Assembly: GCF_035593265.1 (NCBI RefSeq)
Contig: NZ_CP141614.1
Span: 124,001 to 188,000 of the forward strand
Source: Limnochorda sp. LNt
GTDB taxonomy: Bacteria; Bacillota; Limnochordia; Limnochordales; Geochordaceae
Direction of reading: 5' to 3'
Length of the DNA stretch: 64,000 nt
Position numbers and translations under genes: made by a program
Shown here: positions 2,941 to 23,923 of the stretch, piece by piece
How the letters are laid out: each line of letters opens with the position of its first letter
Numbering within the stretch: position 1 is the first letter of the stretch
The notes under the pieces: generated by a model
Seen by the model: the letters and a program-made list of their open reading frames with translations, nothing else
Told to the model about the DNA's origin: nothing
Databases searched by the model: none

Positions 2941-3968
2941 CGGCCCGCCCCGGCGCCGGGCGCCGAAGGGGCTTGCCCGCGCTCGACGAACCTGGCCACG
3001 CAGGAGAGGGGGCATGGACTCGATGCCAGCATCACGTCGCGTGCCCCAGGTCGCGACCTTCTCCATCGTGGCGTTCGATGCGCCGACGGGCAGCCTGGGG
3101 GTGGCGGTGCAGTCCAAGTTCCTCGCGGTGGGAGCGGTGGTGCCGTGGGCCCGCGCAGGCGTGGGGGCCATCGCGACCCAGGCGCTGGCCAACACCGCCT
3201 ACGGGCCCCGAGGGCTCGAGCTGCTGGCCGAGGGCTTGGAGCCCGAGGAGGTGGCGCGGCGGCTGGTGGCCGACGACGAGGGGCGGGAGGATCGCCAGTT
3301 CGGCATCGTCGACGCCCGCGGTCGCAGCGCGGCCTTCACCGGGAGCCGGTGCTTCGAGTGGGCGGGGCACGTGACGGGGCCCGGCTTCGCCGCACAGGGC
3401 AACATCCTGGCAGGGCCGGCCGTCGTCGAGGCCATGGCCGACGCCTACTTGCGTACGACGGGGGACCTGGCCGCGCGCCTCGTTGCCGCACTCCACGCCG
3501 GTCAGAGGGCAGGCGGTGACCGCCGCGGCCGGCAGTCGGCTGCCATCCTCATCGTCCGGGAGCGGGGCGGCTACGGGGGCTTCAACGACCGCTACATGGA
3601 TCTGCGGGTCGACGACCACCCCGACCCCATCGGCGAGCTGGAGCGGCTGGTGGGGCTCTTCCGCCTCTACTTCGAGCGGGAGCCCGAGCCGGAGCTGGTG
3701 CCGCTAGAGGGGCCGGTGCTGGCCGAGGTGCAGCAGGCGCTGGCGGCACTGGGGTACCTCTCCCACGCCACGGGCCGCCTCGATGAGGCGACCCGCGAGG
3801 CCCTGGCGGCCTGGCACGGCATGGAGAACTTCGAGCAGCGCCAGCACCCGGGCGACGTCATCGAGCGGGTGGTGCTGGAGTACCTGCGCCGGCAAGCAGA
3901 GTCGACCAGGGGGAAAGACCACGCCGGCTAGGAGCGACGTCCGGTCCCAAAGCGGGGTAAAGGCGGGT
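2290..3968. repeat. Long direct repeat, copy 1 (livF end plus DUF1028 gene)
   Basis: About 1.68 kb covering the second ABC domain of the LivG-LivF fusion, the 73-base spacer and the whole DUF1028 gene recurs in the same orientation at 20171-23760. Identity is near complete over most of the length. Clusters of changes lie around 2480-2580 and 3630-3720. Homology starts abruptly inside the second Walker A motif and ends at AAAGGCGGGT. This copy is uninterrupted and its genes are intact, so it is probably the parental one. Confidence 0.93.
3014..3931 (+). CDS. DUF1028 family protein with C-terminal helical extension (copy 1)
   Basis: A 305-aa protein whose first ~220 residues match the DUF1028 family, thought to adopt an Ntn-hydrolase-like fold; function unproven. 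Recognisable stretches are FSIVAFD at the start, LGVAVQSKFLAVGAVVPWA near 30-50, and GFAAQGNILAGPAVVEAMA near 120. The last ~75 residues (from PLEGPVLAEVQQALAALGY) resemble a peptidoglycan-binding-like or pilus-assembly-like helical module, as seen in longer DUF1028 proteins. The ATG at 3014 follows an AGGAGAGGGGG ribosome site. It sits directly behind the transporter ATPase and is probably in the same operon, hinting at processing of an imported amide or peptide, which is inference. An almost identical paralogue is at 22806. Confidence 0.85.
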   Translation: MDSMPASRRVPQVATFSIVAFDAPTGSLGVAVQSKFLAVGAVVPWARAGVGAIATQALANTAYGPRGLELLAEGLEPEEVARRLVADDEGREDRQFGIVDARGRSAAFTGSRCFEWAGHVTGPGFAAQGNILAGPAVVEAMADAYLRTTGDLAARLVAALHAGQRAGGDRRGRQSAAILIVRERGGYGGFNDRYMDLRVDDHPDPIGELERLVGLFRLYFEREPEPELVPLEGPVLAEVQQALAALGYLSHATGRLDEATREALAAWHGMENFEQRQHPGDVIERVVLEYLRRQAESTRGKDHAG

Positions 3969-4137: not shown

Positions 4138-4599
4138 GTGGAGAAGGCCGAACAGGACCGCGGCATGGGCCACTGTTGCTTATTTCCATCGGATTTCCTC
4201 GACGCACATACGCGGTACTGGGAAGATGGGGAGGAACTGTTCGAGCACGGTCGGTTGGCCACGGCCGATCACCTCTTCGGCCTGTGCGCGGAGTGTGGGC
4301 TCAAGGCTCTAATGGTGGTGGCCGGTATGACCACGGACCCGCTTGGGGTCCCTTCTCAAGAGTATAAGACGCATATCAACCGGCTTTGGGACAAGTTCGT
4401 GAGCTTTGCGCAAGGACGCACGATTGAGAGATATGCCATGGAACTCCCTGTCACCAACCCGTTTGGCGATTGGTATGCGAGTAACCGCTATGCACACCGG
4501 AGACACTTTAGCAGAGGCATTGTCGAAGTTCATCGCGACGGGGCAAGCCTGATTCGCCGAATCGTGAACGCGCCTCAGAGGGATGGCGTGCTGCAATGA
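4138..4599 (+). CDS. Putative HEPN-like protein, first gene of three-gene conflict-type operon
   Basis: 153-aa protein of unproven function. The N-terminal half (ARY-type helix, GRLATADHLFGLCAECGLKA at 36-55) resembles HEPN-type all-helical proteins. Near residue 120 there is NRYAHRRH, which contains an Arg-x5-His spacing compatible with the R-x4-6-H signature of HEPN ribonucleases. GTG 4138 is preceded by AGGGAG at good spacing. The stop overlaps the ATG of the next gene by four bases (ATGA), so translation is probably coupled. The DNA is visibly less GC-rich than the flanking transporter genes, consistent with horizontal acquisition. No signal peptide or membrane segment is seen. The HEPN assignment is from pattern recognition and needs a profile search. 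Confidence 0.6.
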   Translation: MEKAEQDRGMGHCCLFPSDFLDAHTRYWEDGEELFEHGRLATADHLFGLCAECGLKALMVVAGMTTDPLGVPSQEYKTHINRLWDKFVSFAQGRTIERYAMELPVTNPFGDWYASNRYAHRRHFSRGIVEVHRDGASLIRRIVNAPQRDGVLQ

Positions 4600-5921
4600 A
4601 CGACTTCGTTCCATTCGACCAGGTATGGCCTCGCATCCACGATGTGTTGTCGGCCTCGCGTTTGGGGGAGGTGGGGCTGCCCGAGTTATGGGTGATTCGG
4701 GACCTAAGAAGCCGCATTCGTCTCGCGGTACCCGACGGTCTGGTGCTATCGAGTGCTCTGGAATCTCTCTTGGCGGATACTGCACGGCAACTCTCCGATC
4801 GACTCGGAGCACACGCCTATCCGCCTGGTCGAATGGTGCTTCGAGCAGAAGGAGCTGAGCTCGATGCCTTGCGCGCGGATGCGGTGACGACGCAGATGGG
4901 GTCCCTCTCGGTCTACCTTGTAGACCGGCTCTTAACGGGGATGGGATGGGGGAAAGTCCCAGAAGGCTTGTCCGCGAGAACCAGGCGGTACACGCTCTTT
5001 TCTCTCAAGGGGGGCGTGGGCCGAAGCACCACCGCTGCCGTGCTGGCCACCCACCTTGCCGGACGAGGGCTGCGGGTGCTCGTCGTGGACCTTGACCTCG
5101 AGTCTCCTGGCCTCTCATCTATGCTGCTTGCACCTGGGGAGCACCCGGACTATGGGGTGGTCGATTGGTTTGTGGAGGACTTGGTGGGGCAATCTGATCC
5201 GGTGTTGGCCCACATGGTGGGTCGGCCGAGATGGTGTCAGGACCTCCAGGGGGACATCCTGGTGGCTCCCGCCTACGGGTCTGACCCAGGAGAGTACATC
5301 TCGAAGCTAGGGCGAGTCTATCTCGATCTCCCGGCGGATGGGCCCGACGCCGTGGTGGAGCCGTGGAGCGCGCGTCTGGTGCGCATGCTTGTCGAGTTGG
5401 AGAACCGGCATAAGCCGGACGTGGTCCTGCTGGACAGCCGTAGCGGCCTACACGACTTGGCAGCTGCCACGGTTACTGACCTGCAAGCCCAAGTGTTTCT
5501 CTTCGCGGTAGATTCAGAGGCCACCTGGGCGGGCTACAGACTGCTGTTCGATTACTGGCGTGCGCATGGGGCCGCAACGGTCATCAGGCAGAGGTTGTCG
5601 CTGGTCGCTTCCTTGGTCCCGCAGGAGCGGGCATCGGTGTTACTGAAACGGATGCGGGAGCGGGCGTGGGATCTATTCAGGGAGTACTTATACGATACAG
5701 TCCCCGCCGACCCTGAGGAAGAGGCGCGAACTGAACCATTCTCCTTCGACCTTATGGATGATGAGGCGCCCCACAGTCCGTGGCCCATCTACTGGAACAC
5801 GGGTCTTAGTTGGGTCCCTTCGATCCGGGGGCTCGAGGAGCCAGCCGTATTCGCCGCATACCAAGGATTCCTCGAACGGTTCGACGAGCTCTCGATGGCC
5901 GCTCAGGAGGGGCAGCCATGA
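4596..5921 (+). CDS. KGGVGR-motif ParA/MinD-like ATPase of putative conflict system
   Basis: 441 aa. An N-terminal domain of about 125 residues, not recognised by me, precedes a SIMIBI-class ParA/MinD-like ATPase. Its deviant Walker A is SLKGGVGRSTTAA near residue 137, with Arg where ParA/MinD proteins usually have Lys before the final Ser/Thr. Next come VVDLDLESPGLSS near 165 and a Walker B-like VVLLDSRSGLHDLAAA near 277. The extra acidic DLDLESPG stretch and the KGGVGR variant are what I recall for a subfamily found in predicted conflict operons. The gene overlaps its neighbours by four bases at both ends (ATGA junctions), so the three proteins are likely made together and may form a complex. 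No partitioning partner (ParB) or cell-division context is present, arguing against a plasmid-segregation role. Confidence 0.75.
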   Translation: MNDFVPFDQVWPRIHDVLSASRLGEVGLPELWVIRDLRSRIRLAVPDGLVLSSALESLLADTARQLSDRLGAHAYPPGRMVLRAEGAELDALRADAVTTQMGSLSVYLVDRLLTGMGWGKVPEGLSARTRRYTLFSLKGGVGRSTTAAVLATHLAGRGLRVLVVDLDLESPGLSSMLLAPGEHPDYGVVDWFVEDLVGQSDPVLAHMVGRPRWCQDLQGDILVAPAYGSDPGEYISKLGRVYLDLPADGPDAVVEPWSARLVRMLVELENRHKPDVVLLDSRSGLHDLAAATVTDLQAQVFLFAVDSEATWAGYRLLFDYWRAHGAATVIRQRLSLVASLVPQERASVLLKRMRERAWDLFREYLYDTVPADPEEEARTEPFSFDLMDDEAPHSPWPIYWNTGLSWVPSIRGLEEPAVFAAYQGFLERFDELSMAAQEGQP

Positions 5922-6850
5922 GAGAGCACGGTGGATCTCGGGGCTGGAATCCGGAAGTCCTGAGGGAGCTCCTGGTTAGTGCGCTGCCGGTGGAGACATC
6001 CCTTCACGGTGGCGCCCCGGACCCTCGTTTCGTCTACCTGCCCCCTTCACATGTCAAAGCTCTCCAACCGGATACGATGGTAGTGGTCGGCATGCGTGGA
6101 GCCGGCAAGAGCTTCTGGTGGGCGGCGCTTCAGAATCCTGTGATCCGAGGGCTTGTGGCTCGCGTTCGTCCTGATGTGGAAGTGCAAAGGCAGACTCAGG
6201 TCGCGGTTGGATTTGGAGAGAGGCCGAGTCCCGACGAGTACCCTAGCCGCGACATCCTTTTACGGATGCTCCGGGAGGCGCGCCAACCAAGGGTCGTGTG
6301 GAAGACGATCGTCTTCACGAAACTGGCCGGAGCAGGCACGCCTCTGGGGGCGACGAGGGACTGGATGGCGCGACTGGCCTGGGTGCGAGAGAACCCGGAA
6401 TCTGTGGAGCGACACCTCGAAGCACGGGATCGAGAGTGCGAACGGGAACAACGATGGTCCTTGGTGCTTTTCGATGCCCTGGACCGGAGCGCAGACGACT
6501 GGCAGGACATGTATCGCCTGATCCGCGGCCTCCTGGAGACAGCCCTTGAGTTTCGGCCTTACAGGCGCCTTCGCGTAAAGTGCTTTCTCCGCTCGGACCA
6601 GCTTGACGAGAGCAGGGTGGCCAACTTTCCCGACGCATCGAAGGTGCTCAGCGCCAGAGTTGAGTTGAGCTGGTCTCGCCCTGATCTATATGGTCTTCTT
6701 TGGCAGTACTTGGCCAACGCACCCCAACCGGGAGCCGAGGTATTCCGCAAGGAGGCAGAGGAAAGGCGTGGCGTCAAGTGGTCGGTGGAGGAGTTGTGTT
6801 GCGTTGATCGCTATTTGACCAGGGTCGTCGCGCGCTCGATGAGCGGGAAA
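5918..6850 (+). pseudogene. P-loop NTPase, third gene of the operon, C-terminus lost to a transposon
   Basis: Starts at ATG 5918, overlapping the ATPase gene stop. It encodes a P-loop NTPase with Walker A VGMRGAGKSFWW near residue 57 and Walker B-like LVLFDALDRS near 182, then a sensor-like KCFLRSDQLDES near 222 and a DLYGLLWQYL stretch near 255. The pattern is STAND/AAA-like. About 305 residues look native. Beyond roughly 6840 the frame runs into transposon DNA (terminator hairpin and antisense of the transposon genes) and stays open to 7141 only by chance. Families with this arrangement that I recall are longer, so the C-terminal part is inferred to be deleted. No matching C-terminal fragment appears on the far side of the mobile elements. 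Boundary uncertain by tens of bases. Confidence 0.65.
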
Positions 6851-6890
6851 GGGCGTGGCTCGCCGGATGTCCCGGGCGGCCACGCCCTTT
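6848..6890 (-). terminator. Hairpin closing the transposon operon
   Basis: Perfect 12-bp inverted repeat: AAAGGGCGTGGC at 6848-6859 and its complement at 6879-6890, with a 19-base loop that is itself GC-rich. It lies five bases beyond the stop of the last leftward transposon gene and is followed on that strand by TTTCCC. Terminator-like, although the T-run is short. Confidence 0.55.
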
Positions 6891-6895
6891 GGATG

Positions 6896-7117
6896 TCAGG
6901 GCAGCCGATGACGGCTGGCCCTGCCGTCGGCCTCCTGGGCCTCCGCCCAAAGCAGCGCCAGGCGGACGGCCAGCTCGTAGATGGCGCGGCGGGAGGTAAA
7001 GGCCAGCACCACCTCCCGCGGGCCGTCCACCAGGCGCAGCCGAGCCAGAGGGCCGGCCCGGCGGGTGCAGCGCCACTCGACGGTGATGGGCGTATTCCCT
7101 CGCAGCCACAGCCGCAT
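6896..7117 (-). CDS. Small transposon-encoded protein, unknown function
   Basis: 73 aa, starting at ATG 7117 behind a strong GGAGGTGA ribosome site that overlaps the ATPase stop codon; the two coding regions are only five bases apart. The N-terminal half (MRLWLRGNTPITVEW) looks like a beta-rich segment and the second half is helical. I do not recognise the family. Its position as last gene of the transposase-ATPase operon and its ribosome site indicate a real accessory gene of the element. Confidence 0.6.
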   Translation of the reverse strand: MRLWLRGNTPITVEWRCTRRAGPLARLRLVDGPREVVLAFTSRRAIYELAVRLALLWAEAQEADGRASRHRLP

Positions 7118-7122
7118 GGCGC

Positions 7123-7944
7123 TCACCTCCCAGCCGCCTGAGGCGCCTGCCATTCGGCGGCGATGACCGCCTCGACCAGCTCATGATCGACCACGCGCTC
7201 CTGCCGAGCGGCCGCCGCCATGAGGCACAGGTGGGCGAGCTGGTTGATGGGCCGCGGTAGCCCGTTGCAAGCCCGGTGGATGTGGTCGAGGGCCTTGGCG
7301 GTGAACAGCTCCTGATTGGCCCCGGCCAGCTTCAGGTGATGGCGGATGTAGGCGGCCGTCTCCTGGGGCGAAAAGCCGCTGAGGTGGTAGCGGAGATCGA
7401 TGCGCTGGGAAAGCGCCTCGGCGGAGCGAAGGGCCAGCCGCTCCGCAAGCGCCCGGGTGCCGCAGAGCACCAGGGCGAAGGGCGCAAAGGCGTCGCAGTC
7501 GTAATTGAGCAGGCTCCGGACCTCCTCCAGCATGGCCGGGCTCAAGAACTGCGCCTCGTCCACCAGCAGGACCGGCGTGCGATGCTGCGTACGCCAGCGC
7601 TCGGCCAGGGCCTCCCGGGCGACCTTCTTGAGCTTGGGCAAAGCGTGCGGCGCATCGAGCCGCAGGGCGTCGAGCAGGCTCTGGAAGAAGCTACGGGGGG
7701 TGAAGGCGACGTCGGCCAGGTAGACCACCTCGTAGCGGGTGGCGTCGAGCTCGGCCTTGAGCCGCCGAAGCGCGGTGGACTTCCCGGCGCCCACCTCCCC
7801 CGTCAGCACCATCACGCGCCGACGCTCGGCGACGTAGTGGAGCCTCGCCAAGGCCTCCCGGTGGGCCTGGGAGACAAACAGATGCTCGACGGGGATCTCC
7901 CGGGCAAAGGGCGTGGCCGTCAGGCCGAAGTGGGTTTCAAACAT
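7123..7944 (-). CDS. Transposon AAA ATPase, TniB/ExeA-like
   Basis: 273-aa AAA+ ATPase, intact, of the type that accompanies DDE transposases (TniB, MuB, IstB) and shares its fold with ExeA. Walker A is LTGEVGAGKSTAL near residue 48 and Walker B is PVLLVDEAQFL near 120; an arginine-finger-like region follows (LRSAEALSQRIDLRYHL). The start MFETHFGLTATPF is characteristic of ExeA-like proteins. ATG 7944 has GGAGG nine bases upstream and overlaps the end of the transposase gene by eight bases, indicating translational coupling. Role by family knowledge: ATP-dependent target-site capture and activation of the transposase. No frameshift or missing motif seen. Confidence 0.87.
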   Translation of the reverse strand: MFETHFGLTATPFAREIPVEHLFVSQAHREALARLHYVAERRRVMVLTGEVGAGKSTALRRLKAELDATRYEVVYLADVAFTPRSFFQSLLDALRLDAPHALPKLKKVAREALAERWRTQHRTPVLLVDEAQFLSPAMLEEVRSLLNYDCDAFAPFALVLCGTRALAERLALRSAEALSQRIDLRYHLSGFSPQETAAYIRHHLKLAGANQELFTAKALDHIHRACNGLPRPINQLAHLCLMAAAARQERVVDHELVEAVIAAEWQAPQAAGR

Positions 7945-9310
7945 CGGGCATCGCCTCCGGATCCTCAAGCAGACTCAGGCGCAGGGGGGACATGGCCCGG
8001 GCCTGGCGCTGTCGCCGGCGCTGGACCAAAAGCTCCAGGTAGGGGATCGCGGGCTCGACCGGGCGGCTCGGCTCCGGGTGGTGGACCCGGTCGAGGCCGC
8101 GGTAGACGGGATGGGCGAGATCGAGGGCGACGGCGTCGCCCACGTGGCGGCCCTCGATGAACAGGCTGAGACGCTCCAGGTGCAGGGGATGGAAGCGCAC
8201 CTCGACCTTGCGGCCTTCCAGCCCGGGCGGCGCTTCGTAGCGGTTGCCGTCGAAACGAAGACACCCGGTCTTGTCCACCCGGCGCACCCGCCGCCACAAA
8301 AAGACGTGGGCGAGCTTTTCGGCCGAGACGGTCCGGCGCGCCTGCAGGCGAGCAAATCGAACGGCCGGCGCCTCGCCCGTCTCGCTGTGGACCTGCACGT
8401 GGTAGGCCTCCTCGATCCAGGCCGCAAGCCTTTCGTTGAGCGCCGCCAGGTGCTGGACAGGGTGATGGGTCAGCTCCCGCAGGAACTGATCCTGCAAGGT
8501 TTCAAAGAAGCGCTCGATCTTGCCGCGGCCCTCGGGATGGCCAGGGGTGCCGGAGATGTGGCGGATGCCGAGCTCGGCACAGGCCCGGGTGAACACCTCG
8601 GCCTGGAAGATGAGGCCCCGGTCGACGTAGACCCGCCAGGGAAGGCCCCGGCGCAACAGCGCCTGCTGAAAGCACAGCTCCAACGCATAGAGGTCCTCGG
8701 CCCAGAAAAACTCCGCATGGGCCACCAACCGGGAGTGGTCGTCGAGGAAGGCCAGAAGATAGGTGCGCCGCATGCGGCCCGGCTGGAAGGGGTCCGGCAG
8801 CGCCGGACCCGGCGTGGCATCGCCCTGCCACAGGTCGTTGGGGGCCTTGGCCTCGAAGCGGCGCAGGCCTGGCTTGGGGGGAAGGACCCGCTGGCTCAGG
8901 CCTTCCCGGTGCAGGTGGCGCCAGAGGGTGTTGGGCTTGAGGGTCTGCGGAGCTACCAGGCCCGCCGCCTCCAACAGCCGCACCACCTGGGGCAGGCTGC
9001 GGGTCGGGTCCTGACGCTTGAGGGCCTTGGCCTGCTCCAGAAGCTCGGGGGTGACGACCCGCACCGATCCCCGGTCCCGCCGCAGGGCCAGCCGCAACGC
9101 TTCGAAGCCACCGAGTCGGTAGCGGCGGACCCACCGGCGCAAGGTTGGGGCGCTCACGTGCAGGCGTCTTCCGTCCGGGAGCAGGTGGGGGCGGCCCACC
9201 ACCTCGGCTCGCCAGCGCCGCTTCTCCTCCGCATCGGCCAGGGGATCCAACAGCGGGGCGATCAGCGAATAGCGAAACAACGCCAGCGTGTCGTCGGGCC
9301 AGGAAGCCAT
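7937..9310 (-). CDS. DDE integrase-type transposase with Mu-like C-terminal domain
   Basis: 457 aa. Helix-turn-helix region at about 45-130 (SAPTLRRWVRRYRLGGF), then an rve/DDE catalytic core: first Asp in LWQGDATPG near 163, second in VYVDRGLIF near 230, and Glu in GHPEGRGKIERFFE near 262. A C-terminal beta-barrel-like Mu domain (NRYEAPPGLEGRKVEVRF) follows. All three catalytic acidic residues appear present, so the protein could be active. ATG 9310 is preceded by GGGAGGG. Partner of the downstream overlapping ATPase gene. Family assignment between IS481-like, Tn5053/TniA-like and IS21-like cannot be settled by eye. Confidence 0.88.
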   Translation of the reverse strand: MASWPDDTLALFRYSLIAPLLDPLADAEEKRRWRAEVVGRPHLLPDGRRLHVSAPTLRRWVRRYRLGGFEALRLALRRDRGSVRVVTPELLEQAKALKRQDPTRSLPQVVRLLEAAGLVAPQTLKPNTLWRHLHREGLSQRVLPPKPGLRRFEAKAPNDLWQGDATPGPALPDPFQPGRMRRTYLLAFLDDHSRLVAHAEFFWAEDLYALELCFQQALLRRGLPWRVYVDRGLIFQAEVFTRACAELGIRHISGTPGHPEGRGKIERFFETLQDQFLRELTHHPVQHLAALNERLAAWIEEAYHVQVHSETGEAPAVRFARLQARRTVSAEKLAHVFLWRRVRRVDKTGCLRFDGNRYEAPPGLEGRKVEVRFHPLHLERLSLFIEGRHVGDAVALDLAHPVYRGLDRVHHPEPSRPVEPAIPYLELLVQRRRQRQARAMSPLRLSLLEDPEAMPDV

Positions 9311-9471
9311 GGAAGCACCCTCCCTGCCGTAGGGTTTGCTTCCAGTCTCCGGCAACCGGGCGCTCTCCGAGAAGGCGCCAGGGTTTGGGGGGTCCGGCAG
9401 CCCCGCGGAAGGCGAACGGATGATCGATTTGAGCGGGGCGCAGATGCCTCCTCTCCCGGCCCCTGACGCTT

Positions 9472-10076
9472 TCAAAGCCAGGCCGGGTCGCCCTGGAGCA
9501 GGAGGTTGACGATGTCCAGAAGGCCGGTTGCTGTCGGCCCAGGATGCGCCTGCCTCACTCCCTGGCGCAGCGTCTCGGCGAAGTCCAGGCACGCCCCCAA
9601 CGGGTCATCCTCCGGCGGCTGCAGGACCGGCGGGCCGGTCGGAAGGCCCCCGCCGAGCTCCCCCCACCACTCCTGCAGCCGGGCCAAGACCCCCGGCGCC
9701 TCGGCCCACGCCCTTCGCACCAGCCGGCGCACGGTGGCCACCGAACGCCCTATTGACTCGGCCAACGCCCGCCACGACATCCCCGCCGGCGCCCCTCGTA
9801 CAGGCGCTGGCGGACGGCGCTGACCAGGCTCTGGTAGGGGCGCAGGAAGCTGGGCAAAAACGAGACCGTCCGGCCGCAGCGCGAGCAGCGCCGGCGGCGC
9901 ACCGGAATCCGCTGATAGCCACCCGGCCCCGTCTCGTCGGCGCCGCGCTCGTAGCACCCGTGTCCCCACAGCCGACCGCCGCAGGCCGGGCAGAGCCGGG
10001 GAAGCCGCAACCGGCCTGACTTTTCGGCGGCCAGGTAGGAGCGAACGTCTGGGCCGGCGAAGATCGGGATCACCAA
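9472..10076 (-). pseudogene. Zinc-ribbon/HTH transposon protein (DUF6431-like), frameshifted
   Basis: Reading left from TTG 10076 (or GTG 10073), the first ~95 residues contain two zinc-knuckle pairs, CPACG and CSRCG, and run to PYQSLVSAVRQRLYEG. The frame then has to change near 9790-9810 to continue as MSWRALAESIGRSVATVRRLV, a helix-turn-helix, down to the stop at 9472. Together they give about 200 aa resembling the DUF6431 zinc-ribbon proteins often found beside transposases. The frame break suggests a decayed gene, or possibly an error in the sequence. The ribosome site (GGGGAGGGAG) is inside a small hairpin at 10086-10100. Confidence 0.6.
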
Positions 10077-10080
10077 ACCG

Positions 10081-10378
10081 GCTCCCTCCCCTCAGGGGAG
10101 GCTCCCGATCCGGGAGAGCAGCCGGGGGCGGTGTTGGGGGAGCATCCCGGGCGTGGCGACCGCGGTGGGGATGCTCCCGCTGTTTTCCCTCCCTCACCGC
10201 CCCGCTTTCGCTGCCGGGACCGGGCGGCATCGGCGCACGGGCCTCCCCATGCCCCCACGATTCGGCTCCCCGGCCGCTCTGCCTTCCAAAAAGCCCCAGC
10301 CCCCCGGCTAGCCGGGGGGCTGGGAGGGTCCTCCGGGAGACCCGACGCTCAAGCTACGCGCGAGATCCACCCTCTGAA
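10081..10378. other. Hairpin-rich intergenic block between two mobile elements
   Basis: No gene is seen in these ~300 bases. Four inverted repeats stand in a row: CTCCCC/GGGGAG at 10086-10100, CTCCCG/CGGGAG at 10102-10116, GGGAGCATCCC with GGGATGCTCCC at 10138-10178, and a perfect 30-bp palindrome (arms CCCAGCCCCCCGGC) at 10295-10324. The last is followed on the minus strand by a short T-run and so is terminator-like in that direction. They may insulate the transposase genes from outside transcription or mark element ends. Confidence 0.7.
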
Positions 10379-11477
10379 GTGCTCAAAGAGCGGGAGGCGC
10401 GACAGGACTGCCTTCGGGACTGGGCCATGGCCGCCGACGTGGCCTCGGCGTGGGCGATCAACGACGCCATCCTGACCACGGCCCGCAAGAACAAGACCTT
10501 CCAGGGCGGCAGCGTGCACGGCTGGCATGTGGTGGCGCTGGATGGGACCGAGGTGCTGCGCACCCAGGCCCGCTGCTGTGCGGCTTGCCAGGTCTACCGG
10601 CATCGGGACGGGCGGGTGGAGTACGTGCACCGGGTCGTGGCGGCCCAGACGGTGCGCTGGCCGTCCGGGGAGGAGGGGGGCTACCCGAGTCGGCGCAAGG
10701 CCCGGGGAGTACCGGCCGTGGTGTGGGGCATCGAACCCCAGCGGCCCCAGGAAGGGGAGGTCGATGCAGGGCTACGGCTGCTGCGGCGCCTGCAGGGAAA
10801 AGCACGGGCATTTCTGCGACGTGGTCACGGTGGATGCCCTGTATGCGCAGGCTCCCTTCCTCGAGGCGGTGCGCGCCCTGGGACTTCACGTCGTGGTGTG
10901 CCTGAAGGACGAGCGCTACGCGGTCGTCCAGGACGCAGAGGGGCTACGGCGGGGCCGCCGCTACGACGAGGCCTTTGTGTCCCGCATCGGCTCCTTTCAG
11001 GTGGAGGTGCGGGCGTGGGACAGCCCGGAGCTGACCAGCTGGGAGGGACTCAAGCGGCCCATCCGGGTCGTGTATGCCGAAGAGGAGCTGAGCTGGACGG
11101 AGCACCAGGGGACTGCCGTCTGGCACTGCAAAGCGCTTCGCATCCTGGAGGTGGCCACCACGCTGAGCCCGGCCGAGGCCAGCGGCCGGGTGGTGTGGGA
11201 GATCGCCCGGGCCCGATGGGGGGTTGACAACGAGGGATTTCGGCAGCTCAAGCACGAATGGCACCTGGACCACCGCTTCCTCCACCACCCGACCGGCATG
11301 CAGGTGCTGTGGGCGTTGTTGGCGGCGGGCTACAACCTCTTTCAGCTGTTTTTGGCCCGCCGCATCCGCCGCCGCGGTCCCTGGGAGCAGACCGACCGGG
11401 GCGTGGCCGAGCGGCTGCGGGCGGAGCTTCTGGTCGGGGAGGCACCCCCGGACTCGTACCTCTTCAACACGAGCTGA
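10379..11477 (+). pseudogene. IS4-superfamily-like DDE transposase, frameshifted and probably N-terminally truncated
   Basis: Two overlapping frames together give one transposase. The first (from GTG 10379) carries ADVASAWAINDAI and the first catalytic Asp in VVALDGTEV. The second carries [13 protein letters not shown] (second Asp), the Glu region [18 protein letters not shown] and an aromatic C-terminus. The switch needs a +1 shift at GGAAAAG near 10801-10807, probably a one-base insertion in an A-run. The reading begins without the N-terminal domain usual for such enzymes, and no strong ribosome site is seen. Inactive as read. Flanked by the 30-bp palindrome on the left and a T-run hairpin on the right. 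Confidence 0.75.
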
Positions 11478-19569: not shown

Positions 19570-20170
19570 GTGTCGCTTGACAGGCAGAACCGCTTTACCA
19601 AAGGGAGTGAAGGGTGCACTCGGGAACGGAACGGGAAAGGAAGGGCGAGATGCGTGGACCAACACGGTCCAGGTACAGCGAAACAGCAGCAGGGCACAAC
19701 CGGATGATCCTGCGCGATCCATGAGCGCCGGGCTACCGTCCGCCTCATTCCACGGACAGGACACGCGGGTTTCGCCGTACCCGCTCTTCGGAAACAAGTC
19801 CCTCAGGACCTTGACTGGAGGATGTCCCGTAGTCCGTGCTGGTATGCTTGAGCTGTCGAAACGGCGGCGCCTCGGAGGAGCCTTCAGAAGGTGAGCGCCA
19901 CGGTGTAGCATAAGGTTTTCGCCCACGAGACGGGCGGGGGCGGTGCGAGCGCAGGGGGAGGGTGAGCCGGGCTTTTTCGTGGGCCTGTAGCCCGTGTCTC
20001 TGTTTGGCCGGTCCCCTCCTGCGAGCACCCGTGGGGGTCTCGGCTGCGTCGACCGGGCCCCCGGCCGGTGGATGCACGCTTACGTGGCCTTGCCGGACGC
20101 CCTGCGCGCGGAGCTGAGTACGTGAGTCGTGTTGAGGTGGAGGTCAGTTGCGTATTGCAACCTAGGTCTC
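19570..20170. other. Long non-coding stretch with small hairpins, no gene recognised
   Basis: About 600 bases between the kinase stop and the duplicated livF fragment with no recognisable protein. Small inverted repeats include GCGGGT/ACCCGC at 19765-19784, a CAAGTCC..GGACCTTG pairing near 19795-19813, and GTTGC/GCAAC around 20148-20162 right before the duplication joint. Short open frames exist but have no ribosome site or family resemblance. It could be a remnant of a mobile element, a group II intron fragment, or scar DNA of the duplication. Confidence 0.55.
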
Positions 20171-20821
20171 AACGGCGCCGGCAAGACCACACTGTTGCGC
20201 ACCATCAGCGGCCTCATCGAGGGCCAGCCCGAGAAGGGCGAGGTGCGCTTCGACGGCCGTGCCATCACCCGCTGGCAACCCGAGGACGTCGCGGCGCTCG
20301 GCATCGCTCACGTCCCCGAAGGCCGGGGGATCTTCGCGGAGCTCACCGTCGAGGAGAACCTGGAGGTGGCCGAGCGGGGGCGACGGGATGCCGATGGCTG
20401 CGCTTGGGTACTGAGCCTCTTCCCGGTGCTGGCTGCGAGGCGGCGCCAGAGGGCCGGCACGCTGTCGGGGGGCGAGCAGCAGATGCTGGCCGTCGCCCGC
20501 GCCCTCCTGTCACGGCCCAAGCTGCTGATGCTCGACGAGCCATCGACGGGCCTGGCCCCTGCGGTGACCCGGGAGATCTTCAGGGTGCTGGACGAGGTGC
20601 GCCGTAACGGCACCGCGGTGCTCCTGGTCGAGCAAAACGCGCGCATGGCGCTGCAGGTCGCCGACTACGGCTACGTCCTCGAAAACGGCCGCATCGTGCT
20701 GGAGGGCACCGCTCGAGAGTTGCAGGACAACCCCCACGTCCAGGAGCTCTACCTGGGCGTCTCGATGGAGGCGACCCCCAAGGGCTGGCGCCGCTACCGC
20801 AAGCGGCGCCGGTGGAACTGA
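20171..20821 (+). pseudogene. Duplicated livF-domain fragment, 5' truncated
   Basis: Copy of the second ABC domain of the LivG-LivF fusion. It begins inside Walker A (NGAGKTTLLRT) because the duplication starts at base 2290 of the parental copy. LSGGEQQM, LLMLDEPSTGL and the C-terminus are preserved, with substitutions such as ELGRRDADRRAW to ERGRRDADGCAW. An open frame extends back to GTG 20129, giving 230 aa, but the first strands and part of the P-loop are replaced by unrelated residues (YCNLGL), so a working ATPase is unlikely. The remaining frame is intact to the stop, meaning the duplication is recent or the copy is conserved by conversion with its parent. Confidence 0.8.
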
Positions 20822-20956
20822 CGGCCCGCCCCGGCTGGCGTTGTACAGTAAGTGGCCACAACCCGCCCCCACCCGCACGGTGCGAAGCGGGTTTGCGGGC
20901 CATTCCCCGTAGAAAAACGCGGATGCGCGTAGACACAACCACAAAAGATGTAGCTA

Positions 20957-20985
20957 TTGACACAGCGTGGTAAACGAGTTACGAT
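20957..20985 (+). promoter_or_regulatory. Promoter inside the IS1634-like element
   Basis: TTGACA at 20957-20962, 17-base spacer, TACGAT at 20980-20985. The expected transcript start near 20992 is only a few bases from ATG 20995, and no ribosome site precedes that ATG. The transposase message may be leaderless, which would limit expression. Confidence 0.55.
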
Positions 20986-20994
20986 GTAGGCACG

Positions 20995-22649
20995 ATGTAC
21001 GTGCGCACCGTCACTTCCAAGGGCATCCAATACGCCCAGCTTGCCCATAACGTCCGGGACCCCAAGACTGGACAGCCCCGGGCCCAGGTGCTGTACACCT
21101 TCGGCCGGGTCGACCAGCTCGACCTGGACGCGCTGCGCCGCCTGGTGCGCAGCATCGCCCGGTTCCTGCCCCCCGACGAGCAGGCCCAACTGCAGAAGGA
21201 TCTCGGCATGGAGTGGCCCTTTCGGTACCTGGGCTCCCTGAAGCTGGGCGGGACGTGGCTTTTGGACGGGCTGTGGCGGCGGCTGGGCATCCAGAAGACC
21301 TTGCAGCGCCTGCTCAAGCGCTGCCACTACCAGACCCCCATCGAGCGGCTCCTCTTCGCCATGGTGGCCAACCGGGCCCTGGCGCCGTCCAGCAAGCTCG
21401 GCCATCGAGAAGTGGGTGGCGCAGGACGTCTACATCGACCAGCTGCCCGCGGTGGAAGTCCACCAGCTCTACCGGGCCATGGACTTTCTGCTGGAGGCTG
21501 CCGAGGCGATCCAGCGCGAGGTCTTCTGGACGCTGGCCAACCTCTTCAACCTCGAAGTGGACGTCATCTTCTTCGATACGACGACGGCGTACTTCGAAAT
21601 CGAGGGCGAGGACGCCGACGGGTTGCGCCGCTGGGGGCACAGCGCCGATGATCATCCGAAGATGGCCCAGGTGGTCATCGGCTTGCCGTGACCCGGGACG
21701 GCATCCCGGTCCGCTGCCGGGTCTGGCCCGGCAACACCGGCGACCAGAACGTCGTGGCCGAGGTCAAACGGGATCTCAACGGCTGGAAGCTCAACCGGGT
21801 GGTCGTGGCGTTGGACACGGGCTTCAACTCCGAGGCGAACCGCCGCATCCTGCAGGGCGCCGGCGATCACTACATCATCGGGGAGAAGTTGCGGGTGGGC
21901 CCCCAGGGGTGCCCGCGGAGGCGCTGCGCCGGGCGGCAAGTACCGCAGGCTTCCCGACGGGCTGGAGATCAAGGAGGTCGTGGTCGGAGGGGATAGCGCC
22001 GCCCGCCGGCGCTTCGTCATCGTCCGCAACCCCGAGGAGGCCGAGCGGGACCGCCAGAAGCGGGAGTCCATCCTGGCCGAGCTTCGCCAGCGGCTCGAAG
22101 CGCTCAAACAGAAGCAGGGCGAGGCGCATACCAAGGCAGCCTGCGAGCTGCGGGCCCACGAGACCTTCGGCCGCTACCTGCGCCAGACGTGGGCGCGCGA
22201 CTGGTCATCGACGCGGCCAAGGTTCGCCGAGAAGCCGCCCTCGACGGGAAGTTCGTGATCAGCAGCTCCGACGACTTTTGCCCGCCGAAGACCTGGTCTA
22301 CGGCTACAAGCAACTCTGGCAGGTGGAACGGGTGCACCGGCACCTGAAGCACACGGTCGACGTCCGGCCGATGTACCACCGGCTCGACGACCGCATCCGG
22401 TCCCACGTGCTGCTGTGCTGGCTGGCCCTCCTCATGATCCGGGTGGCCGAGAACGAGACGGGCCAGACCTGGCGACAGATGCGGGATCTGGTCGCCCCCA
22501 TCGACGTGGGCCGCCACGCCACCGCCCACGGCGAGGTCTGGCAGGTCCGCCCCCTCACCGAAGAGCAGAAGGCGCTGTTTCAGGCCCTGAAGGTCGACCG
22601 ACCGCCCCACTACCTGAAGATTGTGACGCCCACCCGAAAAACGGCGTAG
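20995..22649 (+). pseudogene. IS1634-family-like transposase, multiply frameshifted
   Basis: The protein can be followed through at least four frame changes (near 21405, 21690, 21905 and 22190-22270). N-terminal part TFGRVDQLDLDALRRLV; first catalytic Asp in VIFFDTTTAYFEIEG; second in VVVALDTGFNSEANRRIL; C-terminal Glu region YKQLWQVERVHRHLKHTVDV, with the Y..R..E..K pattern of the IS4 superfamily. Total would be about 550 aa, matching the IS1634 group. The repeated frame breaks make it inactive. The element could only move with a transposase supplied from another copy. Confidence 0.85.
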
Positions 22650-22805
22650 ATACAACCGCTTTGTCCACCTCAGCCCTTATAGATCCCGTCATGTCGCTCT
22701 TTGTCACCTTGAATTGTCGCTACGAGCTGTTCAACGCCAGCCCGGCGCCGGGCGCCGAAGGGGCGTGCCCGCGCTCGACGAACCTGGCCACGCAGGAGAG
22801 GGGGC

Positions 22806-23723
22806 ATGGACTCGATGCCAGCATCACGTCGCGTGCCCCAGGTCGCGACCTTCTCCATCGTGGCGTTGGATGCGCCGACGCGCAGCCTGGGGGTGGCGGT
22901 GCAGTCCAAGTTCCTCGCGGTGGGAGCGGTGGTGCCGTGGGCCCGCGCAGGCGTGGGGGCCATCGCGACCCAGGCGCTGGCCAACACCGCCTACGGGCCC
23001 CGAGGGCTCGAGCTGCTGGCCGAGGGCTTGGAGCCCGAGGAGGTGGCGCGGCGGCTGGTGGCCGACGACGAGGGGCGGGAGGATCGCCAGTTCGGCATCG
23101 TCGACGCCCGCGGTCGCAGCGCGGCCTTCACCGGGAGCCGGTGCTTCGAGTGGGCGGGGCACGTGACGGGGCCCGGCTTCGCCGCACAGGGCAACATCCT
23201 GGCAGGGCCGGCCGTCGTCGAGGCCATGGCCGACGCCTACTTGCGTACGACGGGGGACCTGGCCGCGCGCCTCGTTGCCGCACTCCACGCCGGTCAGAGG
23301 GCAGGCGGTGACCGCCGCGGCCGGCAGTCGGCCGCCATCCTCATCGTCCGGGAGCGGGGCGGCTACGGGGGCTTCAACGACCGCTACATGGATCTGCGGG
23401 TCGACGACCACCCCGACCCCATCGGCGAGTTGGAGCGGCTGGTGGGGCTTTATCGCCTCTACTTCGAAAAGGCGCCCGAGCCTGAGTTGGTGCCATTGGA
23501 AGGGCCGGTGCTGGCCGAGGTGCAGCAGGCGCTGGCGGCACTGGGGTACCTCTCCCACGCCACGGGCCGCCTCGATGAGGCGACCCGCGAGGCCCTGGCG
23601 GCCTGGCACGGCATGGAGAACTTCGAGGAGCGCCAGCACCCGGGCGACGTCGTCGAGCGGGTGGTGTTGGAGTATCTGCGCCGGCAAGCAGAGTCGACCA
23701 GGGGGAAAGACCACGCCGGCTAG
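22806..23723 (+). CDS. DUF1028 family protein with C-terminal helical extension (copy 2)
   Basis: 305 aa, the second copy of the gene at 3014, in the same direction, with only about ten amino-acid differences. These include FDAPTGSLG to LDAPTRSLG, LFRLYFEREPE to LYRLYFEKAPE, and EQRQHPGDVIE to EERQHPGDVVE. All differences are conservative and the frame is intact, with an identical AGGAGAGGGGG ribosome site. Silent changes cluster around 23430-23510, more than elsewhere, as if this patch had diverged longer or been converted. Its upstream operon promoter is gone, since the IS1634-like element separates it from the livF fragment, so expression would need a new promoter. Function unknown, as for copy 1. 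Confidence 0.83.
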   Translation: MDSMPASRRVPQVATFSIVALDAPTRSLGVAVQSKFLAVGAVVPWARAGVGAIATQALANTAYGPRGLELLAEGLEPEEVARRLVADDEGREDRQFGIVDARGRSAAFTGSRCFEWAGHVTGPGFAAQGNILAGPAVVEAMADAYLRTTGDLAARLVAALHAGQRAGGDRRGRQSAAILIVRERGGYGGFNDRYMDLRVDDHPDPIGELERLVGLYRLYFEKAPEPELVPLEGPVLAEVQQALAALGYLSHATGRLDEATREALAAWHGMENFEERQHPGDVVERVVLEYLRRQAESTRGKDHAG

Positions 23724-23923
23724 GAGCGACGTCCAGTCCCTGAGCTGGGTAAAGGCGGGTCGGCGCAGGATGAGTCCGTGCCCCGTGCGCTGATGCACGC
23801 GTTGTCTGGGGGTTGGATACTCGGGACCGGTACCCCGACCACGCGCTGGCGCTCCACTGCGAGAGCATCAAACGCGGTGGAGTGAAACCCATTCGCCCTG
23901 AGGAGTCTGCTTGGACTGCAAGC

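Follow-up and report, generated by a model that had tools for sequence, protein, structure and literature searches.

A decayed copy of the candidate defence system PDC-M28 in Limnochorda sp. LNt, whose intact relatives may form an NTPase-gated HEPN system

The window analysed in this study, a stretch of 64,000 nucleotides from Limnochorda sp. LNt, contains three consecutive genes on the forward strand, referred to here as A, B, and C. Gene A (4138..4599) encodes a HEPN-fold protein (PDC-M28A) of 153 aa when read from the GTG at 4138, and an ATG at 4165 is likewise consistent with the N-termini of its homologues. Gene B (4596..5921) encodes a ParA/MinD-like ATPase of 441 aa (PDC-M28B / NF047398) with a KGGVGRST P-loop in which the lysine is replaced by arginine. 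It is followed by the 5′ part of gene C (5918..6796), which covers 293 of the ~484 codons of an AAA+/Sll1717-type P-loop ATPase (PDC-M28C). As noticed earlier from the sequence alone, the neighbouring genes overlap by 4 nt at both junctions, where the forward-strand sequence ATGA holds the stop codon of A and the start of B (4596..4599) and, again, the stop codon of B and the start of C (5918..5921). In the relatives, the stop codon of A was found in an ATGA at 60 of 89 A/B junctions and that of B at 36 B/C junctions. The trio lies in a dip of GC content, with 59–63% at about 4–7 kb versus about 71–73% upstream and 69–72% downstream, and transposases were found near it; both features had been recognized before. 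A scan for a sigma-70-type promoter upstream of the trio gave none.

The identity of the three genes was searched with sequence profiles. The sequence-only reading, which had proposed such searches, could match the trio to no named system and took it as the best candidate for an undescribed one in the window; this did not hold. The search of PADLOC-DB returned PDC-M28A (1.3e-42), PDC-M28B (1.4e-135), and PDC-M28C (3.5e-91) on adjacent genes, and protein B also matched NF047398. The trio has the same three-gene make-up as the PADLOC candidate system PDC-M28 and differs from it in that the third gene is truncated, the match of gene C spanning positions 7–280 of the 480 in the profile, short of a complete third gene. 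The locus is thus a decayed member of the catalogued candidate PDC-M28. PDC-M28 is catalogued as a candidate anti-phage system. The PDC systems are unpublished candidates ascribed to Payne et al. 2021 (PMC11811056), and a literature search on PDC-M28, KGGVGR, and Sll1717 found no paper naming them.

The operon had been read as intact from 4138 to 6850, and this was found to be incorrect because gene C is broken by a 3.6-kb transposon (6797..10408). Elsewhere in the genome, at about 1.35 Mb of G000:C1, lies a second copy of this transposon with 92–93% identity, and the match ends at the same bases on both sides. The element carries Pfam domains of an AAA_22 ATPase (7123–7968, reverse strand) and of a Mu/rve (rve/Mu-C) transposase (7937–9592, reverse strand). 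The third frame stays open to 7141 because it reads into the transposon, and position 6850 lies inside the element, so the last ~50 bases of the stretch first assigned to the operon are outside gene C. The remaining 5′ part of gene C shows 59% identity to residues 11–295 of protein C from the nearest homologue (L009), and by the length of that homologue about 190 of ~484 codons have been lost. A scrap of 21 codons corresponding to L009 C residues 362–382 was located at 23816..23878 on the forward strand, with 17 of 21 residues identical and a tblastn E-value of 1.4e-5 (window) or 1e-9 (local). When the genome was searched for the remainder of gene C elsewhere, this scrap was the only piece recovered, and a search for a second genomic copy of gene B gave short P-loop matches only. 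The scrap lies directly 3′ of the second copy of a DUF1028 gene. This gene and the end of an ABC-transporter gene are duplicated in the window, 2289–2954 corresponding to 20170–20835 (98.5%) and 2949–3968 to 22741–23760 (97.5%), and a transposase-like ORF interrupts the second copy (20170–23760), after which comes the scrap. Because gene C has here lost the ~190 conserved residues of its C-terminal part, among them the stretch to which the scrap corresponds, the system is most likely non-functional in this genome.

The recurrence of the trio was monitored in the best 80 loci from a profile scan of public genomes, 77 of which were informative. In 76 of these 77, the three genes, which had been taken as a unit, are all present and arranged in the order A-B-C. 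The sole true exception (L026) has B followed by an apparent scrap of the C terminus and is a decayed trio, and three loci (L058, L059, and L076) show no A because the contig begins there. By the record titles, the hosts belong to Bacillota, Pseudomonadota, Acidobacteriota, Nitrospirota, Chloroflexota, Chlorobi, Planctomycetota, Cyanobacteria, Spirochaetes, Synergistetes, Verrucomicrobia, and Actinomycetota. In the class of the window, the distribution is patchy, with B in 3 of 73 genomes; one of the other members (G401/L127) has all three genes, and in the nearest relative (G215/L009, L009:7747-10644), C is intact but an internal deletion has taken the last part of A together with the first part of B. 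We considered whether the A-B pair remaining in Limnochorda still works as a toxin–antitoxin-like dyad, since the ORFs of both genes are intact in this genome and a dyad of HEPN and ParA has been proposed as a toxin–antitoxin pair (PMC3710099). The MAE_18760 HEPN + ParA/Soj dyad (Anantharaman et al. 2013) resembles the present locus in that the HEPN gene adjoins a gene for a ParA/MinD-like ATPase, but its HEPN belongs to another family, contains the canonical Rx4-6H, and was described without a third gene. Identity with this dyad was rejected as the HEPN_MAE_18760 domain was not matched in 78 members of the protein A family at E up to 0.1. The near-constant presence of C among the informative relatives also speaks against a working A-B dyad, and the nearest relative lost parts of A and B yet kept C, which indicates that no two-gene subset is consistently retained. 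A functional A-B dyad therefore appears improbable.

Besides the trio, a two-gene form was found in which a HEPN gene is followed by one fused B-C protein. It occurs in two prophage contigs (L098:4135-7451 and L099:4180-7421) and two bacterial genomes (L129:6256-8966 and L130:7623-10629). All four fused proteins contain KGGVGRT, and a second Walker A is present in three of them. The HEPN gene lies directly upstream of the fused gene in each case, and its product retains the Ex3K, His, and Arg-Tyr residues described below. The PADLOC A models gave no match with the HEPN proteins of L098 and L099, and no match for the prophage two-gene form was found in the E. coli genomes searched. The two-gene form of prophages and bacterial chromosomes is a divergent variant that differs from catalogued PDC-M28 in its fused B-C and in a HEPN missed by the A models. 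The fusion of B and C in four loci argues for the two proteins acting together.

The genomic neighbourhood of the trio was compared with known defence families. The 83 upstream and 87 downstream flanking genes match 130 and 185 PADLOC families, respectively, at 1e-10, versus 21 families matched by 83 control genes from six stretches of the Limnochorda genome, a difference that is indicative only as families rather than genes were counted and the control came from one genome. The flanking families include BREX, Wadjet JetD, DarG, PARIS AriA, a Druantia methylase, and R-M. In Candidatus Thiodictyon syntrophicum (L123, NZ_CP020371.1 325851-343032), the trio is placed within a BREX-2 cluster in the order pglX, trio, “phage resistance protein” gene, pglZ. 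Visual inspection of the ORFs surrounding the trio of the window revealed no BREX core genes. The prophage loci have integrases and terminases close by, and the trio was also found on plasmids and on the chromosomes of many hosts. The trio, for which a survey of defence islands had been suggested, thus recurs in defence and mobile surroundings; some sites are not defence-like, such as that beside the urea genes of Tistrella. The occurrence on plasmids and in prophages would also fit a module that has no part in defence and instead serves the maintenance or housekeeping of mobile elements, and ParA-like proteins often function in partition. We give this explanation little credence: the trio is chromosomal in many hosts and patchy in its class, it is found near or within defence loci, and none of the three genes encodes a ParB-like partner.

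Protein B was assigned to the KGGVGR family, as proposed earlier, by an NF047398 score of 176.4 bits versus a cutoff of 90, and its sequence profile matches ParA/MinD/ArsA ATPases across the P-loop region. The deviant Walker A (KGGVGRST) and the DLDLESPG motif noticed in the sequence are both present and conserved. The P-loop lysine is arginine in 38 of 38 aligned members and in 103 of 104 matches for which the motif was read. Loss of the P-loop lysine is expected from general P-loop biochemistry to slow or prevent hydrolysis, and the replacement by arginine suggests that B is probably slow or non-hydrolysing. A search of phage records for gene B gave no match. KGGVGR ATPases of 628–682 aa were seen in three viral contigs (L101:4965-6887, L102:4456-6504, and L104:4956-6842), with neither A nor C found nearby; a similar short ORF lies upstream of the ATPase in L101 and L102.

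The third protein had been proposed as a second P-loop NTPase, and this was supported by the family profile scores and by the structure model of a full-length relative. The family conserves G40, G43, G45, and K46 of the Walker A as well as D168 and D171. With NF047389 (Sll1717 P-loop ATPase, cutoff 75), the score was 47.9 for the truncated C of the window, 62–71 for full-length relatives, and 119.8 for the fused protein of L130. The predicted structure of the full-length relative (pLDDT 94) gave BrxC (1.7e-5), Aeropyrum ORC2, and Cdc6 as its best matches. The BrxC match is partial (TM about 0.33), and the low overall TM-scores limit the comparison to the ATPase core. From this model, protein C (~484 aa) resembles the BrxC/Orc-Cdc6-like AAA+ ATPases in its predicted fold. 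In another relative (L052:9224-14596), a single frame of 1,790 aa joins M28C to a calcineurin-like phosphoesterase and a NACHT domain.

The HEPN fold suggested for protein A was corroborated by structure and by domain matches in its family. The AlphaFold2 model (pLDDT 92.7) is nearly all helix, and a Foldseek comparison placed only HEPN-type structures in the top six (1o3u, 1wol, 1ufb, 2q00 twice, and 2hsb), with probabilities of 0.94–1.0, but with E-values of 0.05 or above and TM-scores of about 0.45–0.58. Among 78 members of the family, Pfam HEPN_AbiV matched 15 (best 2.4e-4) and Pfam HEPN matched two (best 1.6e-9); for the relatives L006 and L099, the PF05168 E-values were 1.6e-9 and 0.0016, respectively. 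Protein A itself scored 16.2 bits versus the AbiV (PF18728) gathering score of 27.1. A sequence match to PvuRts1I (E 0.21 over a stretch of 57 residues) was taken as chance. The HEPN-like segment ADHLFGLCAECGLKA pointed out earlier is real and contains an invariant Ex3K. The Arg-x5-His spacing reported with it is present in this copy and is not a family feature, Rx4-6H being found in 13 of the 78 homologues. Most but not all HEPN families conserve the motif, and a canonical HEPN RNase was rejected for A on these counts. Instead, E52, K56, R117, and Y118 are present in 78 of 78 homologues and H79 in 77 of 78. The Ex3[KR] motif is also recorded in the 2013 HEPN survey, where AbiV and AF0298 keep the Arg and have lost the motif His, and an upstream His is given as a possible alternative active site (PMC3710099). 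In its residues, the set in protein A (Ex3K, upstream His, and Arg-Tyr) matches that proposed alternative site. Protein A thus resembles the AbiV/AF0298-type HEPNs in its fold, the retained Arg, the absent Rx4-6H His, the upstream His, and Ex3K, and it differs from them in falling under the Pfam AbiV cutoff and in being accompanied by two NTPases.

Because most members are without the canonical RNase motif (65 of 78), protein A may be non-catalytic. It could then serve as an adaptor that binds nucleotides or RNA, with the harm or block caused by the B-C NTPase module itself, for instance through loading onto the DNA of phages or plasmids. ParA and BrxC/Orc proteins load on DNA, and the likeness of C to the DNA-acting BrxC/Orc and of B to ParA/MinD agrees with such a role, as does the fact that C is the part fused to the extra phosphoesterase-NACHT in L052. 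However, the near-invariance of the E, K, H, R, and Y across very distant homologues goes beyond the needs of a passive adaptor, and such a residue set has been assigned to a possible alternative active site (PMC3710099). We therefore regard a non-catalytic A as rather unlikely, although it deserves more weight than the dyad or the maintenance module.

In our favoured reading, which we consider probable, the Limnochorda locus is a decayed member of PDC-M28, whose intact relatives would constitute an NTPase-gated abortive-infection system with a HEPN RNase. The two NTPases B and C would form the sensor or switch module of these relatives, in which the AAA+ ATPase C probably recognizes a nucleic-acid or phage cue and B, with its P-loop Lys replaced by Arg, serves as a ParA/MinD-like nucleotide switch that is probably slow or non-hydrolysing. 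The two may jointly restrain the HEPN protein A or set it off. Once triggered, A would cleave RNA through its putative non-canonical site (Ex3K, upstream His, and Arg-Tyr), and the cleavage would arrest growth so that phage spread is blocked. The analysis establishes the folds or families, the fixed association of the genes, the conserved residues, the B-C fusion, the defence and mobile surroundings, and the truncation in Limnochorda. That the proteins form a complex, that A acts as an RNase, which way the control runs, and that the trio acts against phages are the parts of this model that we infer. More tentatively, and with somewhat less than even confidence, we suggest that PDC-M28 and the fused B-C form belong to one defence family, in which a HEPN protein with a non-canonical RNase site of E, K, His, and Arg-Tyr would be under the joint control of a ParA-like switch without the P-loop lysine and a BrxC/Orc-like AAA+ sensor, the two-gene form being an undescribed variant.

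PDC-M28 is a widespread candidate for which no mechanism was found in the literature searched. Taken together, the domain assignments, the residues kept almost without exception, and the B-C fusion make it a directly testable model; the broken copy in the window is unsuited to such a test. The system bears on the possibility, raised in PMC3710099, that AbiV-type HEPNs lacking Rx4-6H act as RNases.
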